Under the pieces are notes generated by a model that worked only from the letters and a program-made list of their open reading frames with translations, ran no database searches and had not been told where the DNA came from. DNA of 64,000 nt from Rhodococcus ruber NBRC 15591 (GTDB lineage: Bacteria; Actinomycetota; Actinomycetes; Mycobacteriales; Mycobacteriaceae). Position 1 is the first letter of the stretch. The number at the start of each line of letters is the position of its first letter. The position numbers were made by a program, and so were the translations under genes. This document shows, one piece after another, positions 18,836-30,734 of this stretch. The DNA is taken from assembly GCF_001894945.1 (NCBI RefSeq), contig NZ_BCXE01000025.1, positions 1 through 64,000 on the forward strand, in the 5' to 3' direction.

Positions 18836-19528
18836 CTAGTCCAGTCCCTGTTCGATCGCGTACCGGGTCAGCTCGACGCGGTTGGCCAGCTGCAGCTTGC
18901 GCAGCGTGGCCTGGACGTGGTTCTCCACCGTGCGGTGGCTGAGGGTGAGCCGGGCGGCGATCTGCTTGGCCGACAGTCCCTTCGCGACGAGCCGCAGCAC
19001 CTCGGTCTCGCGTTCGGTGAGGGTGGGCGGGGCGGGGGCGCGCCGGCCGGAGTCCGACGACATGCGGCGGTACTCGCCGGAGGACATGCGGCGGTACTCG
19101 CCGAGGACCAGACCGGCCAGGCCGGGCGTGAACACCGCCTGCCCGGCAGCGGTCGCCCGCACGGCCTCGGCCAGCTCGGCGGCCGACGCGCTCTTGACCA
19201 GGTACCCGCAGGCACCGGCCTTCACGGCCCCGAGGACGTCGTCCCGCTCGGAGGACGCGGACAGCACCAGCACGCGGCTGGCCGGGGAGGCCCGGAGCAC
19301 GGCGACGGTGGCCTCGGTGCCGGTGCCGTCGGGCAGCGTCATGTCCATCAGCACGACGGCCGGCTGCACCGCCGCGGCCCGGCGCGCGGCCGCACCGACG
19401 CCGTCGGCGGTGGCGACGACCCGGAAGCCGGCCGCGTCGAGGTCCCGCGAGACGCCGTCGCGCCACATCGGGTGGTCGTCGACGACCATCACCGTGATCG
19501 GGCCGCTCGTCGCGCTGTCCTCACCCAC
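18836..19528 (-). CDS. NarL/LuxR-family response regulator (MacR-like)
   Basis: A 230-residue regulator with a receiver domain (acidic pair D17-D18, phospho-acceptor D62 in VVLMDMTLPDG, conserved Lys in GYLVKSAS) and a C-terminal LuxR HTH (LTERETEVLRLVAKGLS to NHVQATLRKL). The linker holds a duplicated octapeptide, GEYRRMSS twice. The GTG at 19528 overlaps the kinase gene by 8 bases and has GGGGAG upstream. The pair resembles the MacRS systems of actinobacteria, which control cell-envelope lipoproteins in Streptomyces. That match is from memory of the family and is not certain. Confidence 0.87.
   Translation of the reverse strand: MGEDSATSGPITVMVVDDHPMWRDGVSRDLDAAGFRVVATADGVGAAARRAAAVQPAVVLMDMTLPDGTGTEATVAVLRASPASRVLVLSASSERDDVLGAVKAGACGYLVKSASAAELAEAVRATAAGQAVFTPGLAGLVLGEYRRMSSGEYRRMSSDSGRRAPAPPTLTERETEVLRLVAKGLSAKQIAARLTLSHRTVENHVQATLRKLQLANRVELTRYAIEQGLD
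19059..19106. repeat. 24-bp in-frame duplication in the response-regulator linker
   Basis: Two near-identical 24-bp units (19059-19082 and 19083-19106, GACATGCGGCGGTACTCGCC...) encode GEYRRMSS twice between receiver and HTH domains. Confidence 0.95.
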
Positions 19529-20729
19529 CTCGTGCTCCCCTCTTCGGAATCCGGATCTCCCATTCGGTGCCCGCACCGGGCGCGCTGTCGAGCACCGCGA
19601 CGCCACCGAGCCACTGCGCGCGGCCGACGATCGACTTCGACACACCCATCCGGCCCTCGGCGCGGGCCTCGGCGAGCCGCCCGTCCGCGATGCCCTTCCC
19701 GTCGTCGCGGACGCTGAGGATCACCTCGTCGCCGAGGTCCTCGACCAGCACGTACGCCTTCGCCCCGGCACCCGCGTGCAGCGTGGTGTTGGTCAGCGCC
19801 GTGGTGGCGATCGCCGCCAGTTCCGCGGCGCGGACGCGGTCGAGCAGGACCGGGTCGGCGGGCGCCGAAACGGTGACGCCGGCACCGGCCTGGCCCCGCA
19901 GCAGCGCCCGCAGGTCCACGAGTTCGTCGCCGCGGTCGAGCCGGGTGCCCTGTTCGGAGACGAGCATCCGCAGCGCGGCCTCCTGTTCCCCGGCGAGCCG
20001 GGCGAGTTCGGCGGCCTCCCCGCCGAGAGCGGTGCCCCGGCGCCGCACCAGGGCCAGGACCTGCAGCACCCCGTCGTGCACCTCGCGGGCGAGCCGGTCG
20101 CGTTCCTCGGTGGCGGCCGCCACCCGCACGGCCTGTTCGAGCTGCCGGTGCGCGCGCCGGGCGGTGGTGGTGGCGAATCCCATCGCGACGCCGACCGCGA
20201 CGAGGACGGGGGCGGTCGCGTCCCGCCACAGGTCGAGGTTGATCTGGTCGCGGACCACCGCGCTGACCGAGGCCATCGCCAGCGCGGATGCCACGCCGGC
20301 GGCGGGACCGCCGAGGATCGCGGCCGAGAGCACCGCGTTGGCGACCCAGAGGGTGGTGGGCAGCGTCTGATGGGCGCTGTACCAGTCGTGGTCGGCGACG
20401 AGCCGCGTCGCGCCCATGAGTGCGACCGCGACGACCTGATCCATCCCGACCACCACGGCGCGCCGGCCGACTCCCTGCGACAGCAGCACCGCCGACACGC
20501 CGGACCACACCGCCAGCAGCGCGACGAAGAACCAGCTGAGCTGCGGGGAGGTGTAGTGGGTGACGGTGGAGAACTGGGAGCTCACGGCGTAGACGACGGT
20601 GACGAGCCGGAACACCTGCGCGGCCCGCCACAGCGGCGCGTCCGGGTCGGCGCCGATCCGGTCCCGGGCGGGTGCGGCGGGCACGGCGACGCGACGCGGC
20701 GGCCTGTCGTCGGCTCTGCGCCGGACCAT
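19521..20729 (-). CDS. Membrane sensor histidine kinase (MacS-like, HisKA_3)
   Basis: A 402-residue kinase. About six hydrophobic segments between residues 40 and 205 form the sensor. The dimerisation/phosphoacceptor motif is RDRLAREVHDGVLQVLALV, and the HATPase domain carries the N-box-like TTALTNTTLHA and the G-box VRDDGKGIADG, ending near residue 398. It autophosphorylates on His and passes phosphate to the overlapping response regulator. The ATG at 20729 follows GAAGGGGAAC. No extracytoplasmic ligand domain is seen, so the signal is probably membrane-borne. Confidence 0.88.
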   Translation of the reverse strand: MVRRRADDRPPRRVAVPAAPARDRIGADPDAPLWRAAQVFRLVTVVYAVSSQFSTVTHYTSPQLSWFFVALLAVWSGVSAVLLSQGVGRRAVVVGMDQVVAVALMGATRLVADHDWYSAHQTLPTTLWVANAVLSAAILGGPAAGVASALAMASVSAVVRDQINLDLWRDATAPVLVAVGVAMGFATTTARRAHRQLEQAVRVAAATEERDRLAREVHDGVLQVLALVRRRGTALGGEAAELARLAGEQEAALRMLVSEQGTRLDRGDELVDLRALLRGQAGAGVTVSAPADPVLLDRVRAAELAAIATTALTNTTLHAGAGAKAYVLVEDLGDEVILSVRDDGKGIADGRLAEARAEGRMGVSKSIVGRAQWLGGVAVLDSAPGAGTEWEIRIPKRGARGG

Positions 20730-20840: not shown

Positions 20841-22367
20841 GTGTTGGGGTCCTATCGAGCCGTCGCGGCGACGTTGCGTAGTCGCTGGCCGCTCTACATG
20901 GCCTCGATGGGGGCGTCGAACCTGTTCGGCGCGCTGCTGGTGTTCGCGTTCGTCCGGTACGGCATCCCGCTGTCCGAGAACGAGAACATCATCGCGGACC
21001 GGGTCCGCAACTTCGCGGTGTTCGCGGTGTATCTGGTGTTCGCCGGGATCGTGAGCCTGACGGCCGCGGCCCTGATGCTGCGGGCGGTGGTGCGTTGGCA
21101 GCTGCGCGGCGGCCCGCCGACCCGATCCGAGCAGATGTCCGCGCTGCACGCGCCGCTGCGGCAGGCGATCGTGCACCTGGTCCTGTGGATCCTCGGCGGC
21201 GTGCTGTTCGTGTTCCTCACCGCGGAGGAGATGCCGGAGCTGGCGGTGGCGGTGGCGATCACCGTCGCGATGGCCGCCACGAGCACGTTCGGGTTCACGT
21301 ACATGCTCGGCGAGCGGATCCTGCGGCCGGTGGCGGCGCGGGCCCTGAGCGAGGGGGAGTTCGACCGGACCCTCGCGCCGGGTGTCGGTACGCGCCTCGC
21401 CATGACGTGGGGGCTCGGCACGCTGATGCCGGCCGGCGGCATCGCCCTGCTGTGCGTCACGCAGCTGACCACCGACGTCGAGTTCCCGGTGGACGCGATG
21501 GCCTGGGCGGTGCTGGCCCTGTCGGTGATGGCGATCGGTCTGGCGGGGGTGCTGTCGTCGCTCACCGCGGCCCAGATCTCCGACCCGGTCAAGCAGCTGC
21601 GCTGGGCCATCGAGCGGGCCCAGCGCGGCGCGACGGACGTGCAGGTCGAGGTGTTCGACGGCAGCGAGATCGGCCGCCTGCAGGTCGGCTTCAACCGGAT
21701 GATGGCCGAGTCCGACGAGCGGCGGCGGCTGCGCCAGCTGTTCGGTCAGCACGTCGGCGAGGACGTGGCCCGCCGTGCCCTGCAGTACGGCACCGAGCTC
21801 GGCGGGGAGACCCGCTACGTCGCAGTGCTGTTCGTGGACATGGTGGGATCGACGGCGACGGCGGCCGAACGCCCGCCGGGCGAGGTCGTCGAGCTGCTCA
21901 ACGAGTTCTTCCGGGTCGTGGTGGACGTCGTCGACCGGCACCACGGCTTCGTCAACAAGTTCATGGGCGACGCGGCGCTGGCGATCTTCGGCGCTCCGCT
22001 GGACCGGCCCGACGCGCCCACCGCCGCGCTCGCGGCGGCCCGGGAGCTGCGATTCGCGCTGGACGAGATCACCGATCTCGACATCGGCATCGGGGTCTCG
22101 GCGGGGCTGGCGGTGGCCGGCAACATCGGCGCGGCCGAACGGTTCGAGTACACCGTCATCGGCGATCCGGTGAACGAGGCGTCGCGGCTGACCGAACTGG
22201 CGAAGCTGCGGCCGAGCCGGGTGCTCGCGTCGTCGAGCGCGTTGTACTTCGCCGACGACGAGGAACGGGCCCACTGGGAGCTCGGCGACGAGGTGCAGCT
22301 GCGGGGCCGCCGCCGGGTGACGCATCTCGCCTGGCCGGTGCGGTATCCGGAATCGGGCCACGAGTGA
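20841..22367 (+). CDS. HAMP-containing class III adenylate cyclase
   Basis: Makes cAMP from ATP at the inner membrane. The 508-residue protein has about six TM segments (residues 15-230), a HAMP linker (QISDPVKQLRWAIERAQRG) and a C-terminal cyclase domain. The metal aspartates are D333 (FVDMVGST) and D377 (FMGDAALAIFG), and the adenine-specifying lysine is K373. The transition-state Asn and Arg lie in DPVNEASRL. This is the architecture of mycobacterial Rv1319c/Rv1320c/Rv3645. The GTG at 20841 has no Shine-Dalgarno. It is divergent from the histidine kinase. Confidence 0.9.
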   Translation: MLGSYRAVAATLRSRWPLYMASMGASNLFGALLVFAFVRYGIPLSENENIIADRVRNFAVFAVYLVFAGIVSLTAAALMLRAVVRWQLRGGPPTRSEQMSALHAPLRQAIVHLVLWILGGVLFVFLTAEEMPELAVAVAITVAMAATSTFGFTYMLGERILRPVAARALSEGEFDRTLAPGVGTRLAMTWGLGTLMPAGGIALLCVTQLTTDVEFPVDAMAWAVLALSVMAIGLAGVLSSLTAAQISDPVKQLRWAIERAQRGATDVQVEVFDGSEIGRLQVGFNRMMAESDERRRLRQLFGQHVGEDVARRALQYGTELGGETRYVAVLFVDMVGSTATAAERPPGEVVELLNEFFRVVVDVVDRHHGFVNKFMGDAALAIFGAPLDRPDAPTAALAAARELRFALDEITDLDIGIGVSAGLAVAGNIGAAERFEYTVIGDPVNEASRLTELAKLRPSRVLASSSALYFADDEERAHWELGDEVQLRGRRRVTHLAWPVRYPESGHE

Positions 22368-22424
22368 CGGACGGCCGGACGAGTCGGCGACGAAAAGGAC
22401 GATCCACCCTCCGGTCCGCTTGGC

Positions 22425-22430
22425 TACGCT
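22425..22430 (+). promoter_or_regulatory. -10 box TACGCT, leaderless start
   Basis: TACGCT lies exactly 7 bases before the GTG at 22438 and no ribosome-binding site is present. Transcription would therefore begin at or next to the start codon. Confidence 0.5.
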
Positions 22431-22437
22431 GAATCCT

Positions 22438-23571
22438 GTGGCGCAGCCCCGACGTGATCCGCCAGCACCCGACGCCACGCGGCGCCGGGGTCGCTTCGGG
22501 CGGGTGAAGTGGCTGCTCGCCGTGGCGCTGGTCGCCCTGCTGGTCGTCGAGGGCATCTACCTGTGGCCGACGCTGGCCGACTCCTGGCGCGCTCTGACCG
22601 AACTGCACTGGGGCTGGCTGGCCGCGTGCATCCTCGCGCAGGCCCTGTCGCTGAGCGGCTTCGCGGAAGTCCAGCGACGGCTGCTGCGCGCCGGGGAGGT
22701 CGTCGTCGGGCACGTGCGCTCGGCGTCGGTGATCTATGCGAGCACGGCGATGGCGGTGACGTTGCCGGCCGGTCCGGTGTTCTCCACCGCGTTCACCTAC
22801 CAGCAGACCCGGCGCTGGGGTGCGACGCCGGTGGTGGCGTCGTGGCAACTCGCGGTCTCGGGGGTGATCGCGGCGGTGACGCTCGCAGCGGTCGGCGTGG
22901 GCGGCGCGTTCGCGGTCGGTACGCGGGTGAGCCCGGTGACGCTGGTGCTGTCGGTGGCCGGGGTGATCGCGTTGATCGTCGGCGTCCGGTACGCGTCCCG
23001 CAATCCGTCGTCCGTCGAGTCGGCCGGGGCGTGGGTTCTCGCGCGCGTCAACCGCCTGCTGCGCAAGCCGGCCGACACCGGGTTGGAGAAGTTCGAGCAG
23101 GTCCTCGGGCAGATCGAGGCGGTGCACCTGGGTCGGCGCGACGGGCTCGCCACGATCGGCTGGTCGGCCGTGCACCGGGTCTTCGACGTCGCGTGTCTGG
23201 GGTTCGCGTGCTGGGCGGTGGGCGGGGAGCCGTCGCTGCCGGGACTGCTGATCGCGTTCGCGGCCGCCAAGGCGGTGGGGAGCATTCCGCTCGCGCCCGG
23301 CGGGCTGGGTTTCGTCGACGGCACGTTGATCGCCACGCTCACCGCGGCCGGGATGAGTGCCTCGCAGGCCCTGGCGGCGGTGTTCGTGTACCGGGGCGTG
23401 AGCTTCATCCTGGTCGCGCTCGTGGGGTGGACGGTGGTGGCTTTCAAGTTCCGGACGAGCCGGCACGAGGAGGACATCGACGCCGATCTCGAACGCGAGG
23501 AACACGCCCGTTCGGTGCTCGAACGACGTCGCGGCCGGGCCGCGAGCGAGGGCACCCCCGCGCCGGAGTGA
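22438..23571 (+). CDS. YbhN/UPF0104 (lysylphosphatidylglycerol synthase TM-like) membrane protein
   Basis: A 377-residue protein with about eight TM helices from residue 22 to 325, then a charged cytoplasmic tail. It has the segments typical of the LPG_synthase_TM family, SIPLAPGGLGFVDGTLIATL and the preceding AFAAAKAVG. The family includes the transmembrane part of MprF and flippase-like proteins. No aminoacyl-transferase domain is attached here. GTG at 22438 is chosen from the leaderless -10 box. A TTG 18 bases upstream is the alternative. Confidence 0.82.
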   Translation: MAQPRRDPPAPDATRRRGRFGRVKWLLAVALVALLVVEGIYLWPTLADSWRALTELHWGWLAACILAQALSLSGFAEVQRRLLRAGEVVVGHVRSASVIYASTAMAVTLPAGPVFSTAFTYQQTRRWGATPVVASWQLAVSGVIAAVTLAAVGVGGAFAVGTRVSPVTLVLSVAGVIALIVGVRYASRNPSSVESAGAWVLARVNRLLRKPADTGLEKFEQVLGQIEAVHLGRRDGLATIGWSAVHRVFDVACLGFACWAVGGEPSLPGLLIAFAAAKAVGSIPLAPGGLGFVDGTLIATLTAAGMSASQALAAVFVYRGVSFILVALVGWTVVAFKFRTSRHEEDIDADLEREEHARSVLERRRGRAASEGTPAPE

Positions 23572-26391: not shown

Positions 26392-27138
26392 TCACCGGAG
26401 GGCCAGCCACACCGCCAGCCCGAATCCGGCGAGTGCGACCCCCACCCGCAGCACGTCGGGCGGGATGCGCCGGACCACCGGCGGTCCGCACCACCCGCCC
26501 GCGACGGCCCCCAGCGCCATCGCCGCGGCCGCACCCCAGTGCACCGGGCCGAATGCGGCGAACCCGATCGCCGCGACGAGGTTGGCCACCCCGAGCAGGT
26601 AGCTCTTGAGGATGGTGGCGCGCCAGATGTGCTCGGAGGTGCAGATCAGGGTCACGGCGAGGAAGACGACGCCCGCCCCGGCCCCGAAGTAGCCTCCGTA
26701 CACGGCGACGACGAACAGCAGCGCCGAGTACGGTCCCGGCAGGTCCCGGCCGCCGGACAGGGCGCGGATCCGCGGCTGGAGCAGCAGCGCGAGAGCCGCG
26801 AACGCCACCATGTAGGGCACCACCGCCTCGAACGACCCCGCCGGCGCCCACAGCAGCACGACGGCGCCGACGAGGCCGCCGAGCGCCGAGTACGCGGTCC
26901 ACCGCCACAGCCGTGGGCCGGTGTCGACGACCTCGCGGGTCGAGTTGGCGAGTGCCCCCACGCCGACCCCCACCATCGCGACGGTGTTGGTGACGTTGGC
27001 GGCGACGGGTGGCAGCCCCGCGGCGAGCAGCGCCGGGTACGACACGATGGACGCAAGGCCGGTGACGAACCCGATGAGCCCGGCGAAGAACCCCGCGACC
27101 GCGAGCAGCAGCAGGTCGACGGGGGTCACGAGCGACAA
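26392..27138 (-). CDS. TauE/SafE-family sulfite/anion exporter
   Basis: A 248-residue protein with about eight TM helices and the family features AGLIGFVTGLASIVSYPALL near the N-terminus and VYGGYFGAGAGVVFLAV in the second half. Members export sulfite, sulfoacetate or related organosulfur anions, and the substrate cannot be told here. The frame begins with TTG at 27138, and a GTG three codons later is equally possible. It is 45 bases downstream of the pseudo-PBP gene on the same strand. Confidence 0.82.
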   Translation of the reverse strand: MSLVTPVDLLLLAVAGFFAGLIGFVTGLASIVSYPALLAAGLPPVAANVTNTVAMVGVGVGALANSTREVVDTGPRLWRWTAYSALGGLVGAVVLLWAPAGSFEAVVPYMVAFAALALLLQPRIRALSGGRDLPGPYSALLFVVAVYGGYFGAGAGVVFLAVTLICTSEHIWRATILKSYLLGVANLVAAIGFAAFGPVHWGAAAAMALGAVAGGWCGPPVVRRIPPDVLRVGVALAGFGLAVWLALR

Positions 27139-27183: not shown

Positions 27184-28860
27184 TCAGCCGTCGGTGGGCG
27201 GCTTGGCCAGCTCCCGCAGGAACATGTCGGCCATCTTCACCGCACGGTCGCCGCCGTCGGCGTTGGCGACGAACACCGCGAACGCCAGATCGCCGGTGTA
27301 TCCGTAGAACCACCGGTCGTCGCCGCTCGCGGCCGCGATGCCGGCCAGTCCCGGGTGGCCCTTCAGGAACGATGCGGGGCCGCTGCGCACGTTCTCGGCC
27401 ATCGCGGCGCGCAACGCGTCGGTCACCTGCGGTGGCAGCGGTTCGACGCTCTCGTCGACCTTCGCCGACCTGCCCTGCACGATCGCCGGCAGCGGCGCTT
27501 CCCCCCGCGCGACGGACGCGGCGAGCAGCGCGGCCCCGAACGGACTGACGAGCGCCTCGCTGCCGCCGTCCGAGCCGGAGAACTGCACCACGCCCGACCG
27601 GTTGTCCCCGATCTGCGCGGTCTCGAAGTCGAACCCCGGAACGTCGTAGTCGAGTCCGAGCCCGAGCCGGCGGGCGGTGGCGGCCAGATCGTCGGTGCTC
27701 ACCGAGACCGGATCGACGCCCCGGTCGAGGCCCGCGGCCAGGCGCACCGGATCCAGTACCTGTCCGGCCGGGTACAGCCCGCGCGAGGCGACCGGTCCGA
27801 GTTCCATCGCCCAGTTGTTCACGTCCAGGGCCAGGACGCCGCCGGTGGACGGCTGGATGGCCACGATGGCCGCGGGGGTACCCACGCTGACCACGGCTTC
27901 CTTGGCGGCGAGCTGGACGTGCGAATCGAGGGTCGCCTGCAGGTCCGGCGGCGGCGGGCCCTGGAAGCCGGCGAGCTGCACGGGGTCGGCGCCGGGTTCT
28001 TCGAGGGTGACGGCCCAGCCGGCGGTGGCGTCGCGTTCGAGCTGCCAGGCCGCGCGCAACGGGTCGAGCAGGGGTGTGGAGATCCGCCGGTCCGCGCTGA
28101 TCAGGGTCGGTGTCTCGACCACCACGACGCCCGGGATGGACACGATGTCGTCCTCGAGGAACTGGTAGTCCTGGTCGCGCAGCTTCACCGCGGTGATGCG
28201 CGCGCCCGGGTCGGCCGCGAGGTTGCGCTGCAGCAGGTCGGCGGTGATGACCGGGGCGACCGGTTCGAGTACCTTCGCGAGCCGTGTCGTGGTGTCGACC
28301 GGATCGGACGTGAGGGCCGGGTCGACGACGACGGCGTTGATGGTCTGTTCGGCCATGAGCAGCCGACCGGTGCGGTCGAAGATCTTCGGCGGGGCGGCGT
28401 CGGTGCGCACGTGGTGCACGGTGCGGGTCCGGTTCAGGTCGGGCACCAGCACCTGCGGGTCCCAGGAGATCCGCCAGCCGACGGCGAGGTTCTTGGCCAC
28501 GCCGTCCACCTGGTAGCCCCAGTCCTTGCCGGGCCCGAAGTTCCAGTCGGCTCCGAGGGAGAAGAATCCCGTCTGCTCGTTGAGTTCGACGAACTGGGCG
28601 ACGTCGAACTCGACGTCACCGTCCTTCATGCCCTCGAACATCTGGCTGATCGACGTCTCGGCGGCGTTCGGGTACGAGGTGAGGGCGGCCGCGCCGGCGG
28701 CGTCGCGTTCGTTCAGTTCCGCGACGAAGTCGTCGACGAGTCGCTGCGCGTCGCTCCGGGAGTCGTCGAACACGCAGGACGCCATGCCCGCGGCGAGAAC
28801 CACGACGGAGACCAGGGCTGTCACGCGGCCGCGCATCCTGCGCCAGTCCCGAAAACCCAT
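27184..28860 (-). CDS. Lipoprotein PBP paralogue lacking all catalytic motifs
   Basis: A 558-residue predicted lipoprotein (signal peptide to residue 28, C29 in AAGMASC). It is collinear with the adjacent PBP: MecA-N-like NTF2 domain (about residues 35-150), PBP-dimer region and transpeptidase-like fold. The SxxK serine and lysine are replaced: LYPAGQVLD puts Gln at 367 and Asp at 370. About 50 residues around SxN are absent, and the KTG strand reads GIAAASGDD. It cannot acylate beta-lactams or crosslink peptidoglycan by the known mechanism, yet the frame is intact over its whole length. I infer a retained pseudo-enzyme with a structural, regulatory or decoy role. Confidence 0.85.
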   Translation of the reverse strand: MGFRDWRRMRGRVTALVSVVVLAAGMASCVFDDSRSDAQRLVDDFVAELNERDAAGAAALTSYPNAAETSISQMFEGMKDGDVEFDVAQFVELNEQTGFFSLGADWNFGPGKDWGYQVDGVAKNLAVGWRISWDPQVLVPDLNRTRTVHHVRTDAAPPKIFDRTGRLLMAEQTINAVVVDPALTSDPVDTTTRLAKVLEPVAPVITADLLQRNLAADPGARITAVKLRDQDYQFLEDDIVSIPGVVVVETPTLISADRRISTPLLDPLRAAWQLERDATAGWAVTLEEPGADPVQLAGFQGPPPPDLQATLDSHVQLAAKEAVVSVGTPAAIVAIQPSTGGVLALDVNNWAMELGPVASRGLYPAGQVLDPVRLAAGLDRGVDPVSVSTDDLAATARRLGLGLDYDVPGFDFETAQIGDNRSGVVQFSGSDGGSEALVSPFGAALLAASVARGEAPLPAIVQGRSAKVDESVEPLPPQVTDALRAAMAENVRSGPASFLKGHPGLAGIAAASGDDRWFYGYTGDLAFAVFVANADGGDRAVKMADMFLRELAKPPTDG

Positions 28861-28943
28861 AACGACCAACTTTCACTTCTGTCACTTCAGCAACAAGCAC
28901 GTCCTGCCTACGATGCGATCACGATTGCGCCTCGAACCGCGTA

Positions 28944-30734
28944 TCACCCCCTCAGCAGGCGTCCCGCCACGTCCACTGCCGGCGCCGAACTGCCCGCTCC
29001 CGCAACGAAAACCGCGAATGCGAGGTCTCCCTGCGAGCCGACGAACCACCCGTGGGCACCGGTGCCATCACCGTACTCTGCCGTCCCCGTCTTACCGACG
29101 AGTTCGGGGATGTCCCGCAGCGCACTCGCGGTTCCCCCCGTGACAGTCTCCCGCATCATCGTCCGTAACGCGGCAGTGACCTCCTCCGGCGCGGCGCCGG
29201 GCGCGCGATCGGCCACCCCCGGCCGGCCCTCGACGAGCATCGGCAGCGGTGTCGACCCGTGCGCGATGGACGCCGCCACGAGTGCCATCCCGAACGGGGA
29301 CGCCGTCACCCGGCCCTGGCCGATCGCGGACTCGACGCGCTCCGCCGGCGTCCGCGCCTCGGGCACGTTGCCGGTGACCGTGACCAGTCCGGGCGTGACG
29401 TAGTCCACCCCGAGCCCGAACTGTGCGGCCGCGTCGGTGAGCGCGGTCGCCGGCAGTCCCACGGCGAGCCGGCCCATCGTGGTGTTGCACGAGAAGGCGA
29501 AGGCGGTGTGCAACGGGACGGAGCCGAGGTCGAAGCTGTCGTCGTTGGGGATGACGCGGCCCTCGATGTTCGCGGTCCCGGGGCACGGCACCACCGTGTC
29601 GGGGGTCGTGGCCCCGGCCTGCAGCGCGGCCGAGGTGGTGACGGTCTTGAACGTCGAGCCGGGCGGATACAGCCCGGTCAGGGCGAGCGGCCCCTCGGCG
29701 TCGGCGGCGGCGTTCTGCGCCACCGCCCGCACCGCCCCGGTGGACGGCTCGATCGCGACGATCACCGCCGGTTGCTGCATCGGCGCCAGGACCGCCTCGG
29801 CGCGCGTCTGCAGGTCCAGGTCGAGCGTGGTCTGCAGGTCCGGCGCCGGTGGACCGTCGGCCCCGGCGACGCGGCGCGCGCTGCCGTCCCCGGACACGAG
29901 CCGCACGGCCCAACCGGCGGACGCGTCCTGCCCCTCCTGCCACAGCTCGCCCAGCCCGGACAGCACCGGCGAGGCCAGGGTTCGGTCGACCGTCAGCAAC
30001 CGGGTCTGCCGGACGAGGGTCACCCCGGGCAGCGCGGCGAGCTGCGCTTCGATCGGCGCGAGGTCGGTCTCCCGGAGGGTCACCGCCGTCACGGGCTTGC
30101 CCGCCGCGGCGGCGACGTCGGCGGCAAGCGACTGCGCGGTGATCGTGGGCGCGGCCGTCGCCAGCAGGGGCGCGACGGCCGCCGGGTCGGCGGTGGCATC
30201 GAGGCTCACCAGCGTCACGACCTGTTGTTCGAGGATCGGCTGCCCGCGGCGGTCGAGCACCGACGGCGCCGGACCCACCGTGGTCGTGTAGCTCAGGGTG
30301 GTGCCGGCGGTCAGGTCCGGGGCGAGCAGCGCCGGATCCCACTCGATGCGCCAGCCCTGCGGGTCGAGGTCCACCGCACTGCCGGACGTGCGGTACGCCC
30401 AGTCCCGCCCGGCGCCGAAGGTCCACGCGACGTCGAGGTCGAACGTGCCCGCGTCCCCCGTGCCGGCGAGGTTCACGTCGGGGCGGACCGTGCCGGACCC
30501 GTCGACGCCGAGACCGTCGAACACGTCGCCGATCGTCGTGGCCGCCGCCGCGGGGTCGGTGGTGAGGTCCGCCGCGGCCTGCACGTCGCCGGCCTCGAGC
30601 GCCGCCGCGAACTCGCCCACGACGGTCTCGGGCTGGTCGGGCCCGAAGGAGCACCCGGCGGCCGCGAGCGCGGCGACTACGGTCGTCAGGAGCGGAACCG
30701 GTCGGCGTCGAAGGATGGGCACGACCACGATCAT
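28944..30734 (-). CDS. Lipoprotein class B penicillin-binding protein (PBP-lipo type)
   Basis: D,D-transpeptidase anchored as a lipoprotein (596 residues, lipobox AAAGC with C28). The N-terminal MecA-N/NTF2-like domain (about 33-145) and dimerisation domain precede the transpeptidase. Catalytic motifs are S360-T-F-K363, S415-C-N417 and K548-T-G. The closest known type is mycobacterial PBP-lipo (Rv2864c), also related to MecA/PBP3 of low beta-lactam affinity. The ATG at 30734 starts the signal peptide. The gene lies 83 bases upstream of its motif-less paralogue and probably shares its transcript. Confidence 0.9.
   Translation of the reverse strand: MIVVVPILRRRPVPLLTTVVAALAAAGCSFGPDQPETVVGEFAAALEAGDVQAAADLTTDPAAAATTIGDVFDGLGVDGSGTVRPDVNLAGTGDAGTFDLDVAWTFGAGRDWAYRTSGSAVDLDPQGWRIEWDPALLAPDLTAGTTLSYTTTVGPAPSVLDRRGQPILEQQVVTLVSLDATADPAAVAPLLATAAPTITAQSLAADVAAAAGKPVTAVTLRETDLAPIEAQLAALPGVTLVRQTRLLTVDRTLASPVLSGLGELWQEGQDASAGWAVRLVSGDGSARRVAGADGPPAPDLQTTLDLDLQTRAEAVLAPMQQPAVIVAIEPSTGAVRAVAQNAAADAEGPLALTGLYPPGSTFKTVTTSAALQAGATTPDTVVPCPGTANIEGRVIPNDDSFDLGSVPLHTAFAFSCNTTMGRLAVGLPATALTDAAAQFGLGVDYVTPGLVTVTGNVPEARTPAERVESAIGQGRVTASPFGMALVAASIAHGSTPLPMLVEGRPGVADRAPGAAPEEVTAALRTMMRETVTGGTASALRDIPELVGKTGTAEYGDGTGAHGWFVGSQGDLAFAVFVAGAGSSAPAVDVAGRLLRG

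Follow-up and report, generated by a model that had tools for sequence, protein, structure and literature searches.

A conserved PBP without catalytic motifs, encoded beside an active MecA_N-type PBP in Rhodococcus ruber, is a candidate adaptor of peptidoglycan synthases

Why would a full-length PBP gene be kept beside an active one after its catalytic motifs have gone? The question arises in a 64,000-nucleotide stretch of Rhodococcus ruber NBRC 15591 (the window), where two collinear genes, both on the reverse strand like all features of the window given below, encode an active PBP upstream (ACT, positions 28944 to 30734) and a pseudo-PBP downstream (PSE, 27184 to 28860). ACT is a MecA_N-type class B PBP of 596 amino acids and a predicted lipoprotein, in which Pfam finds both a MecA_N domain (PF05223, E = 3.6e-06) and a transpeptidase domain (PF00905, E = 1.5e-32). 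Letters and alignment bear out the three motifs that the initial annotation had read in it, S360-T-F-K363 (29646 to 29657), S415-C-N (29484 to 29492) and K548-T-G (29085 to 29093). PSE shares 35% identity with ACT (204 of 578 alignment columns) and, as annotated, has an open frame of 558 codons from an ATG at 28860 (561 codons from an alternative TTG at 28869), which is kept open in relatives. Downstream of it lies a gene for a TauE/SafE-type permease (26392 to 27138; PF01925, E = 2.6e-33), found at 19 of the 61 other PSE loci, and a third full-length MecA_N-type PBP match lies distally in the genome, at about 190005-191765 of contig C21. An Rfam search of the window gave no match; a promoter and terminator scan returned 0 and 0 and carries no information.

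The motifs of PSE proved to be as damaged as had been described. The former SxxK reads LYPAGQ367VLD370, with Gln and Asp at the Ser and Lys positions (Q367-V-L-D370, 27751 to 27762); the loss of about 50 residues around SxN appears in the alignment as 50 columns filled in ACT and 6 filled in PSE (27688 to 27717, the exact place being alignment-dependent); and I508-A-A stands where KTG should be (27331 to 27339). The annotated MecA_N domain, which is NTF2-like (28426 to 28749, E = 7.2e-05), scores 23.5 bits in PSE and 27.7 in ACT, above the Pfam cut-off of 22 for PF05223 in both. It is followed by a pedestal or dimerisation-like domain (27940 to 28425) that falls below the PF03717 cut-off (12.1 versus 24.4 bits) and is folded in the structural model. 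No Pfam match to the transpeptidase domain PF00905 was found in PSE at E<=1, and by motifs and domain match ACT belongs to the class B PBPs whereas PSE does not. Nor is PSE a low-affinity resistance PBP of the PBP2a type, an active transpeptidase, since the catalytic residues are absent. The reading of both genes as lipoproteins held for ACT and weakened for PSE, whose candidate lipobox (MASC, Cys at 28774 to 28776) is poor, with Met at -3; under a permissive pattern a lipobox-like Cys occurs in 44 of 63 aligned PSE copies versus all 31 tandem ACT copies, and in sequence terms the lipobox does not appear to be a family feature of PSE.

Loss of the catalytic residues extends across the aligned copies. 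Among the 63, none has SxxK, the KTG Lys or a full SxN, and the SxN segment is cut to 6 or fewer of its 50 columns in 62; Ser is retained at the catalytic position in 23. Residues that are at least 95% conserved are mostly Gly, Pro, Trp and Ala, with a few Arg, Asp, Asn and Gln dispersed over the fold. An apparent KTG in a distant PSE group (~34% identity) was rejected: the true box there reads LVG, and the [KRT]-S-G motif is found a good way downstream of it.

A frameshift, a sequencing artefact or decay, any of which would have undone the initial annotation, was looked for and not found. The PSE match is free of stops in 17 of 18 Rhodococcus genomes, and dN/dS, computed with our own Nei-Gojobori-type script on 11 genome pairs chosen by hand, together with 10 pairs for PSE alone and 4 for ACT alone, stayed far below 1, at 0.066-0.246 for PSE in the 11 paired comparisons (lower than for ACT in 9); the PSE-only pairs gave 0.037-0.401. 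One could point, in favour of a decaying pseudogene or assembly artefact, to the three in-frame TGA in the PSE match of G004, to the 14 PSE-type rows with one stop inside the match, and to the L071/L072 pair, with a dN/dS of 0.40. However, G004 is a low-quality assembly (75% complete, ~950 contigs) in which the ACT match is fragmented too, and the six stop-bearing rows that were read (L061, L068, L074, L084, L098, L099) hold frames of 540-570 amino acids, making decay or artefact extremely improbable. By its sequence PSE is neither, and the retained full-length pseudo-enzyme that had been proposed stands as a conserved pseudoenzyme, its catalytic residues lost throughout the clade and its open frame under purifying selection.

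We compared column identity between PSE and ACT at 30 tandem loci (L049, on the same contig as L038, was left out of the domain-conservation and distance-correlation sets), and found constraint inverted, with the NTF2-like and pedestal domains of PSE above those of ACT (+0.064 and +0.075) and the former catalytic half far below (-0.312 for the SxxK region, -0.226 for the post-gap region and -0.163 for the C-terminus). Column-bootstrap intervals exclude zero for all five differences and include it for the segment where the transpeptidase domain begins (+0.081). The two gains are of modest size (Wilcoxon p = 0.039 and 0.013 with columns treated as independent), mean identity over the whole mature protein is lower in PSE (0.556) than in ACT (0.617), and dN/dS differs only weakly between domains in a second close pair. 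The pedestal domain holds most of the residues that are fixed in PSE yet different in ACT. Because constraint lies mainly on the NTF2-like and pedestal domains, we infer that PSE works by binding; the loss of all catalytic motifs under strong selection likewise indicates that its job is probably binding rather than chemistry.

The predicted structure of PSE has a PBP fold (pLDDT 84.3; the model's alignment included ACT rows). PBP5fm (Foldseek E = 7.7e-26), PBP2a (E = 2.2e-24) and B. subtilis PBP 3 are all among its best 25 Foldseek matches, and PBP chains match it at Z 26.7-28.3, covering no more than model residues 115-530. These three proteins are active transpeptidases, whereas PSE, though matching them in fold, is without the acylation residues. 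A viral structure library gave nothing at E<=0.001.

By our own count from the match listing, a PSE-type match is present in 108 of 151 family genomes and 21 of 30 genera; PSE was not found in the other 9 genera among the 151 genomes searched, and such envelopes can therefore do without it. PSE forms one clade both in a tree of 108 of 122 proteins, with redundant Rhodococcus loci left out (55 rows, support 100), and in a tree of 65 of 133 proteins (26 rows, support 100/100). In neither its own position nor that of ACT is there grouping with the distal paralogue, the C21 gene L063, from which branches of 100/100 separate the two and which we infer to be the orthologue of Rv2864c. The best tree joins a clade from genera g42 and g46 to PSE (support 70/52); its grouping with ACT is not rejected (p-AU 0.3). 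If catalysis is never regained, the 65-protein tree requires four losses, namely PSE, two within the g42/g46 clade and L114/L130 in g14, so that catalysis also disappeared elsewhere in the subfamily, independently of PSE. No SEDS gene tracking PSE was found among 61 genomes, because PF01098 counts are similar with and without it, at 2 to 4 in the 43 genomes that carry PSE and 2 or 3 in the remaining 18. A full-length match to the active protein accompanies PSE in all 43. We dropped a wider statement that six whole genera are without ACT, four genomes of g9 (G161, G182) and g19 (G116, G164) carrying an unlinked ACT-like gene at 48-51%.

The initial annotation had offered three roles for PSE, as a regulator of the active copy, a scaffold or a beta-lactam-insensitive decoy. 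Were PSE a dedicated regulator of the ACT beside it, or its obligate partner (for example in a heterodimer from one operon), the arrangement of the genes would fit: the two share a strand, a median of 75 nt separates the ACT stop from the PSE start codon used (range 44-869 nt at 30 tandem loci), and ACT also stands at 30 of the 61 other PSE loci, the R. jostii record L046 being one example of the tandem pair; the four unlinked ACT-like genes of g9 and g19 agree with such a pairing, and a PSE-ACT partial distance correlation of 0.29-0.73 persists after control genes. However, no ACT is found at the other 31 loci (some of which are short contigs), and ten examined genomes of six genera have PSE with only the 36-40% distal paralogue (G023, G025, G077, G095, G029, G033, G035, G083, G100, G071; genera g7, g9, g13, g17, g19, g52). 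PSE-bearing genomes in other genera have an ACT-like gene that is unlinked, and one genome (G144, L095) keeps ACT and no PSE. Two neighbours also equal or surpass ACT in how well their distances correlate with those of PSE (ABC-F 0.91 versus 0.87 for ACT, TauE 0.92 versus 0.88), POT correlating less (0.83 versus 0.89), and the comparison did not single out ACT. Because PSE persists where an ACT-like gene is missing or unlinked, regulation of the tandem enzyme is not supported as its general role, and we regard this reading as unlikely.

The non-catalytic lobes, in which PBP2a has its allosteric site, are the conserved parts of PSE, and PSE could have a structural part in the cell wall by binding directly to peptidoglycan, for instance at such a site, with no need of a protein partner. 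The fold matches to PBP5fm and PBP2a speak for this, and one listed Foldseek entry is titled '... peptidoglycan analogue at allosteric'; TM-scores to PBP2a of just 0.39-0.51 among the matches listed speak against it, and we judge it rather improbable. That PSE has gained a different enzymatic activity would explain why an exported fold is held under strong purifying selection, but the former active-site half is its least conserved part and the dispersed invariant residues form no evident new catalytic set, leaving this a very unlikely origin of the constraint. That PSE senses beta-lactams or stem peptides, or serves as a decoy for them, is more doubtful still: the predicted exported PBP fold and the catalytic-position Ser of 23 copies are compatible with it, but with SxxK and the KTG Lys gone from every copy, the SxN segment lost or cut, and the SxxK, post-gap and C-terminal regions the least conserved, the decoy is unsupported because the ligand groove itself is dismantled.

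The scaffold suggestion fared better, a scaffold or adaptor also being our best explanation. With moderate confidence we read PSE as an old, conserved pseudo-PBP acting as a non-catalytic adaptor of peptidoglycan synthases via its NTF2 and pedestal domains. A MecA_N-type class B PBP would have been duplicated before the 21 carrier genera diverged, as tree and synteny suggest. In one copy the Lys of SxxK, the Lys of KTG and the SxN segment are gone, and sequence and model show this copy kept as an open frame under purifying selection, with a predicted PBP fold and its constraint now mainly on the NTF2-like and pedestal domains. The product may be an adaptor attached to the membrane outside the cytoplasm, where it would dock onto a complex of peptidoglycan synthases in order to recruit, position or tune that complex, and would neither bind beta-lactams nor cross-link. 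Its partners would likely be the active MecA_N-type PBPs, whether tandem, unlinked or distal, or else the core of the divisome or elongasome.

A search of the literature found no description of a PSE-type protein. PBP-lipo (Rv2864c/MAB_3167c) is a class B PBP with MecA_N and transpeptidase domains and has a 'distal duplication', MSMEG_6319, in environmental mycobacteria (PMC3987819); most meropenem-selected M. smegmatis mutants carry mutations just upstream of MSMEG_6319 (PMC9485614), and a predicted inactive S364A variant of MAB_3167c gave no rescue (PMC9170245). By description these proteins are of the same kind as ACT and are active, in contrast to PSE, which has no catalytic motif and forms a separate clade. 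B. subtilis offers a precedent: PBP 2B deprived of its catalytic activity still gives division structural support, the activity coming from PBP 3, a relative of PBP 2A (PMC5656894). A class B PBP can thus have a structural part in the divisome that needs no catalysis, but PBP 2B is a natural enzyme inactivated in the laboratory, whereas the inactive state of PSE is natural and old. The conserved fold and lost catalysis of PSE also recur in a different enzyme class, the bacterial pseudokinases, which are reportedly pseudoenzymes of this kind.

Few drug targets have been studied as thoroughly as PBPs, and what they do beyond catalysis is difficult to tease apart from it. Inventories resting on PF00905 would miss the PSE of the window, since it has no match to that domain, and similarity-based annotation may wrongly list PSE as a drug target. 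More tentatively, MecA_N-type PBPs may have an ancestral second function that can be uncoupled from catalysis, the binding and tuning of other synthases via the NTF2 and pedestal domains; the subfamily would for that reason have repeatedly yielded dedicated non-catalytic members, and in most of the family's genera PSE would be a hitherto unrecognised adaptor of peptidoglycan synthesis. A natural, old and catalysis-free PBP beside active ones gives a direct handle on the roles of the MecA_N and pedestal domains, and this extends to resistance proteins of the PBP2a kind.

On the minus strand lie, in order, ACT, an intact MecA_N-type class B penicillin-binding protein (PBP) gene (28944-30734, with Pfam MecA_N and transpeptidase domains), its full-length paralogue PSE (27184-28860, with MecA_N and no transpeptidase match), and a TauE/SafE permease gene. 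The two proteins are 35% identical (204/578 alignment columns). ACT carries the catalytic motifs S360-TFK, S415-CN and K548-TG; in PSE, Q367 and D370 replace the Ser and Lys of SxxK, the SxN-bearing segment (50 alignment columns filled in ACT) is missing, and the KTG position reads I508-A-A. The coordinates and residues given for both genes in the initial annotation proved correct on re-reading the sequence. A contig search placed Rhodococcus aetherivorans DSM 44752 as the closest named relative, with a PSE 94% identical.

We then investigated the spread of PSE, and found that a PSE query matched 118 of 151 family genomes (E<=1e-40). A PSE yields a single match spanning almost the full length of the protein and an active copy yields two, split at the SxN segment; by this pattern PSE occurs in 108 genomes from 21 genera. 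For two of these genomes the assignment has a narrower basis: in G072 the match is divided between contigs, and in G066 it covers the N-terminal part (its locus, L082, was read). The remaining 10 genomes match via ACT-like genes (four in genus g42, three in g46, two in g50, and G144). One stop falls within the match in 14 of the 108 PSE rows, and the six of these that were fetched have full frames. In the poorly assembled G004, PSE is broken by three in-frame TGA codons and ACT is also in pieces; we read the broken PSE as sequencing error. An order-wide search returned 33 genomes from other families, and the full-length PSE pattern appeared in none of them. The final alignment comprised 133 proteins, 63 of them PSE; none of the 63 has SxxK or the KTG lysine, a Ser at the catalytic position is found in 23 and the Lys alone in one. 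The SxN segment fills at most 6 of its 50 columns in 62 of the 63. The exception, L082 (genus g47), fills 23 and is a possible intermediate of the deletion.

PSE forms one clade with support of 100 in a 108-row tree (55 PSE rows) and again in a careful 65-row tree (26 PSE rows, support 100/100), both built without the motif and SxN-segment columns. The distal paralogue of the window's genome, a third full-length MecA_N-type match (contig C21, L063), falls outside it. Catalysis is also lost in six of seven proteins of a g42/g46 clade (L094, L096, L104, L127, L128 and L129; L093 is intact) and in L114/L130 of genus g14; these degenerate proteins lack the SxxK and KTG lysines and keep the SxN segment. 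Parsimony on catalytic state needs 3 changes; if catalysis is never regained, we read the 65-row tree as probably recording 4 losses. Of the seven loci of the g42/g46 clade, the four that were checked (L093, L094, L096, L104) lie close to the LPG-type and cyclase genes that also neighbour PSE.

The initial annotation had taken the second gene to be retained, and its dN/dS of 0.066-0.246 in 11 genome pairs bears this out, with values below those of ACT in 9 of the 11; ten further PSE-only pairs gave 0.037-0.401, the highest for L071/L072. Mean column identity over 30 tandem loci, with column-bootstrap intervals, was greater for PSE than for ACT in the NTF2 domain (0.560 versus 0.496) and pedestal (0.611 versus 0.536), and lower in the SxxK region (0.496 versus 0.808), post-gap region (0.469 versus 0.695) and C-terminus (0.520 versus 0.684), each interval excluding zero. 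At the beginning of the transpeptidase domain, a short region (0.671 versus 0.590), the interval included zero, and the whole mature protein gave 0.556 for PSE versus 0.617 for ACT. These data indicate that constraint has shifted off the catalytic half onto the other half. Residues fixed in tandem PSE and different in ACT, which include Y66, R155, D157, R262, D269, R272 and R279 (561-residue numbering), sit mostly in the pedestal.

The predicted PSE structure retains the PBP fold (pLDDT 84.3, pTM 0.72; ACT model pLDDT 91.9), although its input alignment of 24 sequences included 12 ACT rows, which leans the model to that fold. Foldseek ranked PBP5fm first, with PBP2a and B. subtilis PBP3 among the best 25, and a structural aligner gave Z of 26.7-28.3 against PBP chains. 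By a permissive pattern, a lipobox-like Cys is present in 31/31 tandem ACT, and in PSE at 17/31 tandem loci and 44/63 overall. In several Rhodococcus PSE the Cys is replaced inside a hydrophobic stretch, which suggests an uncleaved anchor.

Beyond the window, 61 PSE loci were fetched and scanned (L136 left out); ACT is present at 30 and absent from 31, some being short contigs. An LPG_synthase_TM-type gene (Pfam; window 22420-23571) is found at 47 of the 61 and at 22 of the 31 ACT-less ones among these, indicating that PSE has mostly been kept at one ancestral place; the other nine ACT-less loci, g43 among them, show no such gene. Also near PSE in the window are HAMP/cyclase, histidine kinase and LuxR-type regulator genes, which among them occupy 18836-19645, 19521-20729 and 20841-22367; within the fetched stretches, these three are found at 28, 24 and 12 of the 61 loci, respectively.

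PSE occurs in 43 of 61 genomes surveyed, and in each of the 43 the active protein also finds a full-length match, by which some active relative appears to be present in every PSE genome of this survey. In 10 of the 43 (G023, G025, G077, G095, G029, G033, G035, G083, G100 and G071, from g7, g9, g13, g17, g19 and g52) that match is only a distal paralogue, 36-40% identical. Other g9/g19 genomes (G161, G182, G116, G164) have an unlinked ACT-like gene (48-51%); among the intact genes read away from PSE, those from g43 and g44 (L124, L125, L137) fall in the clade of the tandem ACT, and those from g11, g14 and g51 (L107, L113, L138) in a neighbouring clade. Conversely, G144 (L095, genus g45) keeps ACT and is missing PSE. 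Together, these cases indicate that PSE is not tied to its tandem neighbour. At L095, PSE is absent from its place between ACT and the TauE gene and the neighbouring genes retain their order, which marks a natural loss. Elsewhere in the window's genome (G000:C1:543184-544155; L139:2098-4947), a 950-aa open frame combines the PBP dimerisation and transpeptidase domains with a SEDS glycosyltransferase (FTSW_RODA_SPOVE). In g10, g42, g43, g45, g46 and g48, too, a third SEDS match lies in a frame of about 900-1050 aa, a candidate for a similar fusion.

Among the matches listed, titles and abstract starts of open-access literature gave no description of PSE, nor did passages on actinobacterial PBPs in PMC6273383 and PMC9146315, the latter of which mentions a Streptomyces PBP with FTG instead of KTG. 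PMC3987819 notes duplication of mycobacterial PBP-lipo, without experimental data. Carbapenem susceptibility in mycobacteria is linked to MSMEG_6319 in PMC9485614; as a g50 gene is 63% identical to ACT, MSMEG_6319 would belong to the ACT clade, which would tie the ACT kind to this susceptibility. A class B PBP with a non-catalytic role has precedent, as PMC5656894 describes. PSE is thus a naturally non-catalytic PBP whose constraint has shifted to its other lobes, in genomes that also carry an active relative; the best explanation is that it serves peptidoglycan synthesis as an adaptor, where we infer binding from conservation.
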